IMG/VR virus record: IMGVR_UViG_3300010354_000700
Coordinates: 1 to 22,937 of that record
Source: a virus
Reading direction: 5' to 3' (one strand)
DNA: 22,937 bases
A model generated the notes under the pieces. That model was given only the letters and a program-made list of their open reading frames with translations. It was not told where the DNA came from and did not search any database. This document shows, one piece after another, positions 12,838 to 18,832 of the stretch (its first letter is position 1; the number at the start of each line of letters is the position of its first letter). The translations under genes were made by a program, and so were the position numbers.

Positions 12838-13326
12838 TCACTCAGTAAGCAACGATGCTTCCGATTTCTTAGAAGCTTTTTCTTTTACTTCAACTTTTTT
12901 GGGCTTTTTGTGCTCAGGAATGATACGCTCGAGGAAAACACGCAGCATGCCATTTAGCATCTCTGCATCTTTAACCTCAATCTGATCTTCAAGAGCAAAC
13001 GTACGAGTGAAGTTGCGTGTTGCAATGCCCTTCCAGAGATAGTTCTCAGACTCTTTCTCGTCAGAAGCTGCATTACCACGAACAATCATCGTGTTATCCG
13101 TAAGTTCAATCTCAATGTCTTGACGTGCAAAGCCAGCTACAGCAAGCTCGATCACGTAAGTGTTATCACCTGTTTTACGGATGTTATATGGAGGATAGTT
13201 AGGAATGTTTTTAGTCATATCGTCATGCATTTTTGCTAGACGATTAAACTGTTCATCAAAGCCAACGTAAAATTTGTCAAAGTCTTTGAACAAATCGCGG
13301 CCAAATACATCTTTAATGTAGGTCAT
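12838..13326 (-). CDS. hsp20: small heat shock protein Hsp20 (alpha-crystallin family)
   Basis: A 162-residue ATP-independent chaperone that would hold unfolded host or phage proteins. The alpha-crystallin domain spans about 44-140: NYPPYNIRKTGDNTYVIELA, IEIELTDNTMIVRG, FTRTFALEDQIEVKDAEM and the signature LNGMLRVFLERIIPE (A-x-x-x-N-G-x-L type). The C-terminal tail is Lys-rich. Marine T4-like phages commonly carry such a gene. It has a strong AAGGAG before the ATG, a late promoter about 115 nt upstream with a structured leader in between, and its own terminator downstream, so it is a monocistronic late unit. Confidence 0.95.
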   Translation of the reverse strand: MTYIKDVFGRDLFKDFDKFYVGFDEQFNRLAKMHDDMTKNIPNYPPYNIRKTGDNTYVIELAVAGFARQDIEIELTDNTMIVRGNAASDEKESENYLWKGIATRNFTRTFALEDQIEVKDAEMLNGMLRVFLERIIPEHKKPKKVEVKEKASKKSEASLLTE

Positions 13327-13351
13327 AAGTTTCTCCTTGTTAAGCGAGTTT

Positions 13352-13378
13352 CAAAAATACCAACCCATAAGGCGTTGG
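13352..13378 (-). terminator. intrinsic terminator or attenuator upstream of hsp20
   Basis: A 7-bp stem with one bulged G and a UUAU loop is directly followed by UAUUUUUG on the minus strand. It lies between the late promoter (13441-13448) and hsp20, so either it ends a small RNA or it controls read-through into hsp20. Confidence 0.5.
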
Positions 13379-13435
13379 CCCGAGGAATTCATAACCAGCC
13401 TTAACCTCGGACTGCTGGTCCCATCCCGAAGGGAT
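13352..13435 (-). ncRNA. candidate structured RNA: 5' hairpin, H-type pseudoknot, terminator-like hairpin
   Basis: Starting about six nt after a TATAAATA late promoter, the minus strand folds compactly. First is a 5' hairpin AUCCC-UUC-GGGAU (13435-13423). Next comes a pseudoknot made of ACCAGC (13419-13414) with GCUGGU (13399-13394), interlocked with CCGAGG (13410-13405) and CCUCGG (13385-13380), with loops of 3, 5 and 8 nt. Last is a hairpin CCAAC-g-CC-UUAU-GG-GUUGG (13378-13360) followed by UAUUUUUG. It ends 25 nt before the hsp20 start. It could be a separate small RNA or an attenuator/riboswitch-like leader of hsp20. I do not recognise a known RNA family. Confidence 0.55.
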
Positions 13436-13440
13436 AAATC

Positions 13441-13448
13441 TATTTATA
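13441..13448 (-). promoter_or_regulatory. T4-type late promoter TATAAATA
   Basis: A perfect T4 late promoter octamer on the minus strand, with no spare bases between it and the rubredoxin stop codon (TAATATAAATAG). Transcription should start about six nt downstream, near 13435, exactly at the first hairpin of the structured leader of hsp20. Confidence 0.75.
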
Positions 13449-13580
13449 TTACTCCATTAGGACGTAATCTTCTTTCGAAACACCACACTCTGGGCAATTG
13501 ACAGAATCAGGCAAACTTAGGTAGTCGGCCTCGGACAACGTGTGGCCACAAACAATACAAACGTAAACTTTCTCAGACAT
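13449..13580 (-). CDS. rubredoxin-like zinc/iron-ribbon protein
   Basis: A 43-residue protein with two Cys pairs, VCIVCGH (7-13) and NCPECGVSKEDY (28-39), the spacing and GVSKxDY ending of rubredoxin and of the C-terminal domain of rubrerythrin. It would bind one iron and pass electrons to the diiron protein encoded just upstream, whose stop it overlaps by 8 nt. A strong AGGAGGT lies five nt before the ATG. It is shorter than free rubredoxins (about 52 residues) but matches the rubrerythrin domain in size. Confidence 0.88.
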   Translation of the reverse strand: MSEKVYVCIVCGHTLSEADYLSLPDSVNCPECGVSKEDYVLME

Positions 13581-14025
13581 TTAAACCTCCTAGTACTTTT
13601 TGATAAGCAGCAGCGTGACGCTCTTCTACTTTCTTTAGCGCTGCAAAGCGCTTCTCTGCTAGCTCGAGGACGCGCTTAAAATGCTCAGCATGATCTTGTG
13701 ACTCTTTTGCTTGCTGTCTAGCTTCGAGCATAGCTTGCTCGTTGCCTTCACGCTCTGCTTCTTCTTCAAACTTTGGATACATCTCTGTGTACTCATAAGT
13801 CTCACCATCAATTGCCATTTGAAGACATTTTTTGGTGGAAGGCTTACCAACAAGAAGCTCTAGGTGTCCCCAAGCATGTTTAATTTCTTGGTTTGCTGTC
13901 TCTTCAAAATGCTTTGCGACATCCTCAAATCCTTCTTCGCGGGCAATCTTGGCAAAGTATCGGTACTTAATGTGTGCCATACTTTCACCAGCCAGCGCTG
14001 CTTCTAAATTTCTTAATGTGCTCAT
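13573..14025 (-). CDS. rubrerythrin, diiron (ferritin-like) domain
   Basis: A 150-residue four-helix-bundle protein that would reduce hydrogen peroxide. Diiron ligand motifs are all present: E14 in AGESMAHIKY, E47 and H50 in NQEIKHAWGH, E78 and E81 in TYEYTEMYP, and E108/H112 in KESQDHAEHF. Standard rubrerythrins (about 190 residues) carry the rubredoxin domain in the same chain; here it is a separate overlapping gene. AGGAA precedes the ATG. It would protect phage DNA synthesis or the host cell from peroxide; the role is inferred. Confidence 0.92.
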   Translation of the reverse strand: MSTLRNLEAALAGESMAHIKYRYFAKIAREEGFEDVAKHFEETANQEIKHAWGHLELLVGKPSTKKCLQMAIDGETYEYTEMYPKFEEEAEREGNEQAMLEARQQAKESQDHAEHFKRVLELAEKRFAALKKVEERHAAAYQKVLGGLNV

Positions 14026-16011: not shown

Positions 16012-16053
16012 CAGTCAGTTGTAATCCACAACATGAAAAGGAAGTTTAGACAA

Positions 16054-17151
16054 ATGATCAGAAAGCTCACATCTGTGGTGCTTTTGATTATGACTTTGTC
16101 CCATGCGGTAGCTCAGACCGCATATGATTCGAAAACGTTGGTCGATACAAACAGTACGTCAACATCTACAAGCACCGTTAATACAACAAACAACAGCACA
16201 AGTACAAGCACAGCTACAAGTACAAGTACTGTTAATAGTAACGCTACAAGCACTAACACAAATAACAATGTTATGAGTGGGTCTGTGACCTATAACAATA
16301 ATAACAATAACGTGAACAGTGGCAGTGTAACGTATAACAATAACAATGTCAACAGCGGCACTATGACGTACAATAACAACAACGTCAACAGTGGTACGCA
16401 GACTTTTAACAACAATAACGTCAGCACAAGTACAGCCACAAACACAAACACTAATGTTAATCAAAACATTAATAGTGGGACACAAACGTTTAATAACAAC
16501 AACGTAAGTACGAGCGCTAGCACGAGTACCAACAATAACAACAACGTCAACACAAGCACGAGTACTAATAATAATGTTAATCAGAACATTAATAGTGGCA
16601 CAATGACAAACAACAATAACAACGTTGTTACAAGTACAAGTACAAACGCTAACAGCAATGTGAATCAAAATATCAACTCTGGTGAGATGACTAATCGTAA
16701 TATTAATACGACAGACATCACACAGCGTATGATTCAACCTCCACCTACAGCAATCGCTCCTATGATGATGTCAGGTGGTAACAATGATTTGTGTACAACA
16801 GGTACCTCAGGTGCTGTGCAAACACAAATCTTTGGTGTAAGTTCCGGCGGAACAGTTCGTGACATGAATTGCGAACGCTTAAAGTTGTCCAAGACTCTTT
16901 ATGATATGGGTATGAAGGTAGCTGCTGTTTCAACTCTTTGTCAAGATAGACGTGTATTTGATGCTATGATGGCAGCCGGTACACCGTGTCCTATCGAAGG
17001 CAAGATTGGTGAGCAAGCAAGAAATATGTGGCTTGAGAATCCCGAACGTATCCCTGAAGAAGTAAAGGAAAAGGACGATGAGACATACAAGAAGCTCGGT
17101 ATTGGTAGCTTACTTGGTATTGCTGTGTTCAAGCTACTCGGCTTCAATTAA
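16054..17151 (+). CDS. secreted Asn/Thr/Ser-rich repeat protein with a conserved C-terminal domain
   Basis: A 365-residue exported protein. Signal peptide: MIRK, hydrophobic LTSVVLLIMTL, cleavage after HAVA. About 200 residues of Asn/Thr/Ser repeats follow (units like NVNSGTMTYNNN), probably an extended or beta-solenoid stalk. The C-terminal domain (about 245-350) has four Cys in DLCTTG, DMNCERL, STLCQDR and GTPCPIE, fit for two disulfides, then a short hydrophobic tail LGIGSLLGIAVFKLLGF. The ATG at 16054 is preceded by AAGGAAG; the ATG at 16033 would lie about 15 nt from the expected transcript start and has no ribosome binding site. Exact role unknown: a surface fibre or envelope protein is likely. 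Confidence 0.85.
   Translation: MIRKLTSVVLLIMTLSHAVAQTAYDSKTLVDTNSTSTSTSTVNTTNNSTSTSTATSTSTVNSNATSTNTNNNVMSGSVTYNNNNNNVNSGSVTYNNNNVNSGTMTYNNNNVNSGTQTFNNNNVSTSTATNTNTNVNQNINSGTQTFNNNNVSTSASTSTNNNNNVNTSTSTNNNVNQNINSGTMTNNNNNVVTSTSTNANSNVNQNINSGEMTNRNINTTDITQRMIQPPPTAIAPMMMSGGNNDLCTTGTSGAVQTQIFGVSSGGTVRDMNCERLKLSKTLYDMGMKVAAVSTLCQDRRVFDAMMAAGTPCPIEGKIGEQARNMWLENPERIPEEVKEKDDETYKKLGIGSLLGIAVFKLLGFN
16267..16720 (+). repeat. degenerate in-frame 36-bp coding repeats (Asn/Thr/Ser-rich)
   Basis: Units reading aaygtSaacagYGG recur at 16309, 16345 and 16381 (36-bp, 12-residue period), with a variant at 16267. A second unit encoding NVNQNINSG recurs at 16453, 16573 and 16657, spaced 120 and 84 bp, both multiples of 12. 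The repeats vary at third positions, so they are old and kept at protein level. Confidence 0.85.
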
Positions 17152-18832
17152 TGCACAGAATCTGACTGCTGATGGTCAGATTCTCAACACAGGCAATATT
17201 GTAATACCAACCAATCAGGGCGGGCCATCGTCTTGGGTAAATGGTGTATATCAAAACAATCTTACTTGCTGGACTTGGGGTAATCCAGGGTATTGTGGGC
17301 CTAACGCTATCGTTCGCCCTGGCAATAACATTAACTTTTCTTTTGGGATGACTGATCTGTACCAGTCTCAGGCAATCGCTAATGTGCTGCCTGACTCTGG
17401 TAATGGTTTAAGAGTGAACGGTTACAATTTTGGATTTCGAGCAAAGAATGGTAATGGATGGGATGATGGCAGACAAGATACTCTTTCTGCATATGTCCAT
17501 TTTACGAATTCTAGTGGGCAAGTCACAGAATATAAAAGTTACGATTTAAATTACAAGTTTAATTGGACAGACTTCAATTTTTCAGGAACGTTTAACACAC
17601 CTTATGCAGCAAAAGATTTAGGTAAAGTTACGTATGGATTTCTTGGTAGAGATAATAACTTTTGGGCGGGTCCGTATGGTCCTGAAGTGACAAACATCAG
17701 CTTCAGTCTTAAATATTCAACAGATCCTTGTGCTGCCAACGTACTGAGTTCACCATCTTGTCCAGGATATCTCCAAGCAATCAACAGTTATTCTACTCCT
17801 TCAACTTCTCCTTCTTCCGGTGAAACAACAATACAATCTTCAGCACCTGTCAGTGGTCCCGCATCAACAACAGTATCCTCACCATCAAGTACGACCACCG
17901 TTGTTGAAGCGCCAAGTTCGACACCACCAACAAGCTCTTCGTCAAACACATCCTCACCTACAACAGTTGTGGTTGCAACTACAACGACGAGCGTGACACC
18001 AAGTGCTACGAACCCACAGCCAAAAGTTGGAGAAGTTAGTGTTGCAGGAAGTCAGCCATCAACAGCTAAATCTACTGTTAGCACCAGTCAAATTCTCAGC
18101 ATAATTGGATCGGAGCAGAGCAGGATAAGCAAGCTAGAGATGAGTACAGCAGCAGCTGCTGTTGAGCAAGCTAAACAAGAGGCTAACAAAGTTGTAAGTG
18201 AAGCACAGTCCGTAGCAGCTGCACAGCAAGCACAAACACTTGCCTCAAATCAACAACTTGTTAGTTCGTTTGTTTCTAGTGGACCACAGAGTCTTGGTTC
18301 TGGCTTGCAAATAGGAAACATGCAAAATAGTAGTATGCCAACAGTTGGTGGGTTTAGCTATAGCAGTAGCAATCAGCAAGGAACTTTTGGTTTAAACATT
18401 GCTGCGCTACAAAGTACTTCCACTCCAATTAGCTCTGATGCTGTGTCCTTTATAAGAAGGCAGGAACAGGAATTGTTTAGACAGCAAGTAACAGAGACAA
18501 GAAACAATAGTCAACCTATAAACATGACTGATCCTGTTAATAATATTATCAATCCACCAGCTTCATTTCCAGTACAACCACCTGCACCAACAGGACCTGC
18601 AGTTAATAGAAATACACAACCAAACGAAGCTGCTGGTGGTAGAGACATTACTGCTATTGCAAGTGCTCCCGCTGGATTCGATGCATACTCCCAATTGGTT
18701 CTTCGCGATGCTGCCTTCTATAAGCCATATGAGGTCTATAGAGGACAAGTGAATGTCGATAATGCACGTGCTCTGAGGCAGCTGTCGACGGATAGATTAC
18801 ACCAAGAAATGGTCAATCAGCAGTACAAATGA
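17078..18832 (+). CDS. large secreted protein: beta-rich N-domain, Ser/Thr/Pro linker, coiled coil, conserved C-terminus
   Basis: A 584-residue exported protein. Signal peptide MRHTRSSVLVAYLVLLCSS with likely cleavage after INA (residue 26) is encoded inside the previous gene in the +1 frame. Residues 27-215 are rich in Asn, Gly and aromatics with Cys in LTCWTWGNPGYCGP and look like a beta-sandwich, possibly glycan-binding. About 238-315 is a Ser/Thr/Pro linker, about 345-395 an Ala/Gln/Glu coiled coil, and the C-terminus ends RDAAFYKPYEVYRGQ... and DRLHQEMVNQQYK. AAGGA lies before the ATG. It could be a virion fibre or a host-envelope protein; similar C-termini occur in marine phages, as far as I recall. 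Confidence 0.82.
   Translation: MRHTRSSVLVAYLVLLCSSYSASINAQNLTADGQILNTGNIVIPTNQGGPSSWVNGVYQNNLTCWTWGNPGYCGPNAIVRPGNNINFSFGMTDLYQSQAIANVLPDSGNGLRVNGYNFGFRAKNGNGWDDGRQDTLSAYVHFTNSSGQVTEYKSYDLNYKFNWTDFNFSGTFNTPYAAKDLGKVTYGFLGRDNNFWAGPYGPEVTNISFSLKYSTDPCAANVLSSPSCPGYLQAINSYSTPSTSPSSGETTIQSSAPVSGPASTTVSSPSSTTTVVEAPSSTPPTSSSSNTSSPTTVVVATTTTSVTPSATNPQPKVGEVSVAGSQPSTAKSTVSTSQILSIIGSEQSRISKLEMSTAAAAVEQAKQEANKVVSEAQSVAAAQQAQTLASNQQLVSSFVSSGPQSLGSGLQIGNMQNSSMPTVGGFSYSSSNQQGTFGLNIAALQSTSTPISSDAVSFIRRQEQELFRQQVTETRNNSQPINMTDPVNNIINPPASFPVQPPAPTGPAVNRNTQPNEAAGGRDITAIASAPAGFDAYSQLVLRDAAFYKPYEVYRGQVNVDNARALRQLSTDRLHQEMVNQQYK

Follow-up and report, generated by a model that had tools for sequence, protein, structure and literature searches.

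A probable ROSE-like RNA thermometer with an exchangeable 5' pseudoknot module in front of phage hsp20 genes

The leader of a phage hsp20 gene was analyzed in a window of 22,937 nucleotides of viral DNA (IMG/VR record IMGVR_UViG_3300010354_000700), the window being the whole stretch at its full length. The leader probably represents a phage-borne, ROSE-like thermometer that represses hsp20 translation and is preceded by an exchangeable module of a 5' hairpin and a pseudoknot. The bacterial heat sensor ROSE appears to have a version of its own in viruses of aquatic bacteria. The leader lies in the gap between hsp20 (start codon at 13326) and a small rubredoxin-like gene, and its elements are listed in Table 1. 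A preliminary description, made from the letters of the window alone, had reported the promoter, the 5' hairpin, the pseudoknot with loops of 3, 5, and 8 nt, and a bulged hairpin, and these were recovered base for base.

Table 1. Elements of the hsp20 leader and their positions in the window
Element	Positions	Strand	Basis or remark
Late promoter, T4-type, TATAAATA	13448-13441	minus	sequence; directly after small rubredoxin-like gene
5' hairpin UCCC-n-GGGAUGGGA	13435-13419	minus	at or next to expected +1
5' hairpin, pairing 1, AUCCC/GGGAU	13435-13423	minus	
5' hairpin, pairing 2 (alternative), UCCC with GGGA	13434-13431 with 13422-13419	minus	
Pseudoknot S1, 5' strand, ACCAGC	13419-13414	minus	covariation and shuffle test
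Pseudoknot S2, 5' strand, CCGAGG	13410-13405	minus	covariation and shuffle test
Pseudoknot S1, 3' strand, GCUGGU	13399-13394	minus	covariation and shuffle test
Pseudoknot loop 3, UAUGAAUU	13393-13386	minus	
Pseudoknot S2, 3' strand, CCUCGG	13385-13380	minus	covariation and shuffle test
ROSE hairpin I, GCCAAC[G]CC-UUAU-GG-GUUGGU	13379-13359	minus	bulged G at 13373
A/U-rich linker after hairpin I, begins AUUUUUG	13358-13349	minus	
ROSE hairpin II, CUC[G]CUU AAC AAGGAG	13348-13333	minus	fold; bulged G at 13345
ROSE-motif UCGCU within hairpin II	13347-13343	minus	
Shine-Dalgarno AAGGAG of hsp20	13338-13333	minus	
hsp20, small heat shock protein gene	13326-12838	minus	Pfam PF00011, E 2e-18; PHROG 432, E 4e-43

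Directly upstream of hsp20, rubrerythrin (PF02915) and rubredoxin-like genes occupy positions 13450-14025, and a rubredoxin-type neighbour of hsp20 recurs in several relatives. Elsewhere in the window, positions 16033-17151 encode a highly repetitive Asn/Ser/Thr-rich protein (PHROG without assigned function), and this ORF is overlapped by a second long one (17078-18832) with no family match.

Homologous leaders were collected from hsp20 relatives in IMG/VR and by a pattern scan, which gave approximately 90 distinct leaders with the 5' hairpin. Each leader was searched for its best H-type pseudoknot, which was then compared with those of dinucleotide shuffles. The best pseudoknot of the window had a stacking energy of -27.8 kcal/mol versus a shuffle mean of -10.2, and 1 of 100 shuffles was as good. 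The same comparison gave a pseudoknot at p ≤ 0.05 in 32 of 38 non-redundant homologous leaders, mostly with 0/100 shuffles reaching it. The nested fold of the whole stretch was not unusual (z -0.25), because the folding program cannot see pseudoknots.

In a plain MAFFT alignment of 28 window-type leaders (set A1), 93% of the cells were paired, compared with at most 49% in slid controls. Two-sided changes were found at 12 of the 20 pairs (0/500 shuffles; the cells count sequences, not evolutionary events), distributed as 4/6 in stem 1 and 5/6 in stem 2 (9/12 for the pseudoknot) and 3/8 in the third hairpin. A separate set of 25 leaders (A2) was 91% paired, with two-sided changes at 9 of 19 pairs. 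The homologues hold 29 different sequences for S1 and 30 for S2, and many separate changes are therefore very likely. Homologous leaders lacking compensatory changes had been named in the preliminary description as the outcome that would speak against the structure, and both sets turned out the other way. The loop lengths vary among the homologues (1-7 nt in L1, 0-6 nt in L2, and 4-14 nt in L3), and A makes up 64% of loop 3 across 32 homologues. An A-rich loop 3 is also a feature of pseudoknots stabilised by minor-groove contacts. With two interlocked helices that are kept by compensatory changes, the element in the hsp20 leader is a real H-type pseudoknot and is evolutionarily maintained. No Rfam family matched the pseudoknot part at E ≤ 10, and blastn against phage records returned no direct nucleotide relatives at E 1e-5.

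Downstream of the pseudoknot, the fold of the leader pairs CUC(G)CUU with the Shine-Dalgarno (SD) sequence AAGGAG around a single bulged G, and the stretch ACUCGCUUA before the SD is kept, with small variations, in nearly all homologues. The published ROSE-motif is U(U/C)GCU, paired with the SD in a two-hairpin leader (PMC3669281). Here, UCGCU stands against AGGA in the window, and UUGCU occurs in C48C1, Melnitz, and S-CRM01. The second hairpin of a ROSE leader is present as well: hairpin I with its bulged G was found in 112 of 120 leaders versus 33 of 2260 shuffles (1.5%), and the Rfam ROSE_3 consensus has the same bulged G before CC..GG. As in a ROSE leader, a small heat shock gene follows, with hsp20 directly downstream in the window.

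The motif was also sought in sets obtained without a leader pattern. Upstream of hsp20, CTCGCTT..GGAG was present in 77/77 loci with enough upstream DNA, in a set found by hsp20 protein similarity only, in which the 3 loci without the motif were truncated. An SD hairpin with a bulged G over a GGA element occurred in 162 of 164 further distinct leaders, which came from protein similarity to three other hsp20s, 15 of the 162 picks being hairpin I. A bulged-G hairpin of this kind with at least 6 pairs was seen at 11 of 705 control starts without the motif. A stricter non-redundant cut of the protein-found leaders let only 13 of 30 through, the reason being that in many of them a further gene or an offset of the start codon separates the leader from the match. 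A compensatory change was observed in 54 leaders, where GAC forms the end of the SD and GUC/GUU replaces CUC/CUU in the anti-SD; these are largely one cyanophage clade (ACG-2014e-like) and may therefore reflect one event. In L207 and L379-L458, which are ACG-2014e-like cyanophages, the SD reads AAGGAC and the anti-SD GUCGCUU or GUUGCUU. The SD of the GUC/GAC clade lies unusually near the annotated hsp20 start codon, almost touching it, which counts against the reading.

The third hairpin of the leader had been described as a terminator with a U-run and, as one option, as part of an attenuator. A U-rich tail (at least 6 U in the 9 nt after hairpin I) was found in 56 of 182 leaders and in 0 of 13 leaders of cultured phages, and all 13 of the cultured-phage leaders inspected retain the hairpin I bulge (G) without a U-run. 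The conserved U-run that directly follows the hairpin of an intrinsic terminator is thus lacking, and the terminator or attenuator reading was rejected on this ground. The third hairpin is ROSE hairpin I, located directly before the hsp20 ribosome-binding site. In three loci, L088 (2082), L109 (6968), and L162 (6156), hairpin II recurs without hairpin I before the next gene (hsp20 or a small unknown gene), and in these the rubredoxin-like gene is the first behind the leader.

Covariance models from Rfam were also applied. The window matched no Rfam family at E ≤ 10, and a direct search with ROSE_3 gave no match to it. Full-length ROSE_3 matches were obtained for L006, whose hsp20 is closely related to that of the window (39.8 bits, E 8e-5), for methylophage Melnitz (34.1 bits, E 1.6e-4, with the hairpin I bulge and ACUYGCU aligned), and for phage C48C1 (26.8 bits). 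All three lie exactly at the leader and are below the gathering score of 43 bits, which is an operational threshold and not a mechanism. The window is not called a ROSE_3 member because it is below the cut-off of the model. From its consensus and the associated paper (PMC3669281), we read ROSE_3 (RF02523) as the Pseudomonas ibpA group.

The two-hairpin core precedes hsp20 in most of the cultured cyanophages sampled. Hairpin I, the motif, and the SD were found before hsp20 in syn9, P-SSM2, Syn1, P-RSM4, S-CRM01, S-CAM7, S-SRM01, P-HM2, S-MbCM100, S-RIM14, ACG-2014e, ACG-2014f, methylophage Melnitz, and C48C1, and many of the cultured-phage leaders are placed right after a TAAATA late promoter, without a pseudoknot. 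Clear variants occur in the jumbo phages Phosso and Deifobo, and in pelagiphage HTVC115P the motif lies behind a sigma70-like promoter. Vibrio phage PWH3a is without the core motif at hsp20. Across 15 phage records (up to 252 kb), the motif pattern was located at hsp20 in every one, with one further match in 4 of them, which is approximately the level of the reversed-pattern control. The covariance model of the window-type leader gave one strong match per record in 13 of 14 records; it was significant for P-SSM2 (7.6e-5) and syn9 (5e-4), and the match on Melnitz was weak and in the right place. A general late-gene leader was considered and rejected, as there is essentially one copy per phage genome.

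Where both hairpins were present and the downstream DNA was long enough to tell (157 leaders), hsp20 followed in every case, as the first or a later gene. In a strict pattern scan of 84,980 genomes, two matches were obtained, both on contigs with T4-like phage genes in metagenome bins, an outcome that speaks neither for nor against a bacterial origin of the exact motif. L218 and L219 are contigs in bacterial MAGs (named Lewinella sp. and Gammaproteobacteria) that resemble T4-like phage sequence. In many relatives, a gene of approximately 74 aa is situated between the leader and hsp20 (e.g., L013, 2789-3010), as if co-regulated; it had no Pfam or PHROG match.

Predicted SD accessibility at 20 °C had a median of 0.24 at these leaders versus 0.40 at other genes of the same loci (Mann-Whitney p 1e-4). 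For the SD of the window, the predicted unpaired value was 0.04 at 4 °C, 0.12 at 37 °C, and 0.28 at 50 °C. The predicted opening with temperature is modest, and some relatives (e.g., L086, L139, and syn9) show almost none or a reversed trend. Since several relatives show little predicted change, thermosensing is not proved by such calculation on its own. A further point against it is that many hosts experience a narrow range of temperatures, so that a thermosensor needs a reason.

The proposed mechanism is as follows. Late hsp20 mRNA would start with the structured leader, the 3' half of which would serve as a two-hairpin ROSE-like thermometer, with hairpin II pairing the ROSE-motif with the SD around the bulged G. 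In the cool, hsp20 translation would be kept low, and upon heating the weak hairpin II would open and let ribosomes enter. The 5' half, a hairpin and an H-type pseudoknot at the start of the transcript, would form a separate, exchangeable module that shields the start of the RNA and prevents upstream sequence from disturbing the thermometer. A temperature-sensing hsp20 leader had been among the options of the preliminary description; this idea has good support in kind, on the ground of a two-hairpin core whose ROSE-motif/SD hairpin lies downstream of, and outside, the segment then described.

The position of the 5' module was derived from the promoters. Between the end of TAAATA and the 5' hairpin, a spacing of 6 nt is the commonest (47 leaders), sigma70-type leaders have TATAAT at a similar distance from the hairpin, and 29 of 140 leaders have neither box there. 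With this spacing, the mRNA is expected to begin with the hairpin and the pseudoknot. The conservation of the 5' hairpin is partly due to selection of the leaders, because the GGGATGGG block belonged to the search pattern. Leader L054 has GAGATGGG, which favours the pairing of UCCC with the second GGGA.

The module is exchangeable: the marine cyanophages examined lack it, in the window's group it is a simple pseudoknot, and in other leaders it is replaced by, or followed by, a larger pseudoknotted domain, K2. Another domain stands between the pseudoknot and the ribosome-binding site in 4 of 41 cases. K2, a second 5' domain, measures approximately 70 nt, follows the 5' hairpin or pseudoknot, and precedes the ROSE core; it is carried by L048, L012, L034, L052, L072, L224, and others (set A5). 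Its conserved blocks are UCUACCUUAGGAGCGUC...ACGAUAAG...CAGUAAGCAGGAU, with an embedded hairpin and many conserved unpaired bases. It has a covarying pseudoknot of its own (two-sided changes at 7 of 16 pairs) and no Rfam match, and it is more aptamer-like than the pseudoknot of the window. A still larger relative of K2 occurs in L344, L346, L347, and L007 (ACCUURGG..CGU ... GGCGUCCGNG ... AGUAAGCUGGAU or GUAACCAGC); in the first three of these it stands in tandem, after a window-type pseudoknot. In L009 (2863-3003), a longer variant leader has a more complex fold in place of the pseudoknot region. L355 (1306-1372) has a window-type pseudoknot before an unrelated 75-aa phage gene, without the ROSE core, and the pseudoknot module may therefore act alone.

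The shape of the pseudoknot is kept without its sequence, a pattern that favours a mechanical role over a ligand aptamer. Judging from its position and variability, we tentatively assign to the 5' module a role in protecting the 5' end and insulating the thermometer; this is plausible and short of probable. A resistant or stabilised 5' end, also suggested in the preliminary description, is compatible with the position of the pseudoknot at the predicted +1. Unlikely, in our view, is that the pseudoknot and K2, in series with the ROSE core, act as sensors binding a factor of the phage or the host. If they were, phage hsp20 would be under a composite RNA integrating temperature and a second signal.

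Among the other explanations for the leader, one places the control in a protein: phage Hsp20, or another protein, would bind hairpin I and the SD hairpin and repress its own translation until titrated away by unfolded clients or capsid intermediates, with temperature secondary. Escherichia coli IbpA does bind its own 5' UTR and repress translation, a repression that aggregating clients lift (PMC10474464), a capsid-scaffold role has been suggested for Hsp20 in cyanophages (PMC3037559), and hairpin I retains its bulged G even though this base is not paired with the SD. Against this stand the ROSE-motif/SD hairpin, which alone explains repression, and the second genes in L088 and L109, which have hairpin II without hairpin I. 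Such autoregulation is doubtful yet deserves serious attention; chaperone autoregulation is compatible with a thermometer, and both may coexist.

The remaining explanations start from the 5' half. In a ligand riboswitch, the pseudoknot would be the aptamer and the third hairpin an intrinsic terminator, and the order of pseudoknot, hairpin, U-run, and ribosome-binding site does resemble a terminator riboswitch; the many conserved unpaired bases of the alternative module K2 also favour it. The stems and loops of the window-type pseudoknot, however, vary freely with the fold alone kept, there is no conserved U-run, and neither a match to SAM-II, preQ1, or another pseudoknot riboswitch in Rfam nor conserved unpaired bases of a ligand site were found. 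We thus regard the riboswitch as highly unlikely, and the ligand sensor proposed earlier as unlikely for this pseudoknot. A discrete small RNA of 80-90 nt, composed of promoter, hairpin, pseudoknot, and third hairpin, would fit the late promoter directly upstream, the stable fold, and the U-rich stretch after the last hairpin. This option of the preliminary description is very hard to reconcile with the joining of the leader to the hsp20 ribosome-binding site throughout the 157 leaders, with the unconserved U-run, and with the domain inserted before that site in some leaders. Least credible is an operator of the gp32 type, in which a phage single-strand-binding protein would nucleate on the pseudoknot, spread, and block the start site. 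The mRNA of T4 gene 32 begins with a gp32-nucleating pseudoknot (PMC535899), and the window is from a T4-like phage, but in the gp32 operator the pseudoknot must be followed by a UUAAA-rich, less structured stretch exceeding 40 nt. Two conserved hairpins are found at this place here, and the gene is hsp20, not gene 32.

The core genes of T4-like cyanophages are reported to include hsp20 (PMC3037559), and its role and control are little known beyond the capsid-scaffolding guess. A single-copy ROSE-like leader before hsp20 across distant phages makes this control testable: infected cells would be expected to yield more phage chaperone as temperature or the amount of unfolded protein increases, a prediction of relevance to how phages replicate in warming waters. 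The leaders also place ROSE-type regulators in viruses and provide a large natural set of covarying pseudoknots.

The closest known system is the Pseudomonas ibpA ROSE element (Krajewski 2013, PMC3669281), which likewise occupies the 5' UTR of a small heat shock gene and has two hairpins, the first with a bulged G before CC..GG. The present leaders differ in being phage-encoded, often behind a phage late promoter, and in the extra 5' hairpin and pseudoknot seen here, and the window is too diverged in sequence from ROSE_3 to score with Rfam. The bulged-G anti-SD hairpin and the logic of translational repression are shared with the other ROSE elements of alpha- and gammaproteobacteria and with ROSE-G (PMC12857270); ROSE-G differs in having CUGCU and opposing G bulges and in preceding ABC transporter genes, and no pseudoknot or phage occurrence is described for these elements in the texts inspected. 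Like the present leader, the T4 gene 32 operator has a pseudoknot in the 5' portion of the leader of a T4-type phage mRNA, but it continues with less structured UUAAA repeats bound by gp32, in place of the two hairpins and hsp20. The Synechocystis hsp17 thermometer also has a hairpin over the ribosome-binding site of a small heat shock gene; it is published as a single hairpin with a 1x3 internal loop, and no ROSE-motif or pseudoknot is described in that abstract (PMC4477652). A search of open-access full texts, judged by title and abstract, found no description of phage ROSE elements. ROSE thermometers themselves are known, and what appears to be new is the occurrence of a ROSE-like element in phages, here joined to a pseudoknot module.
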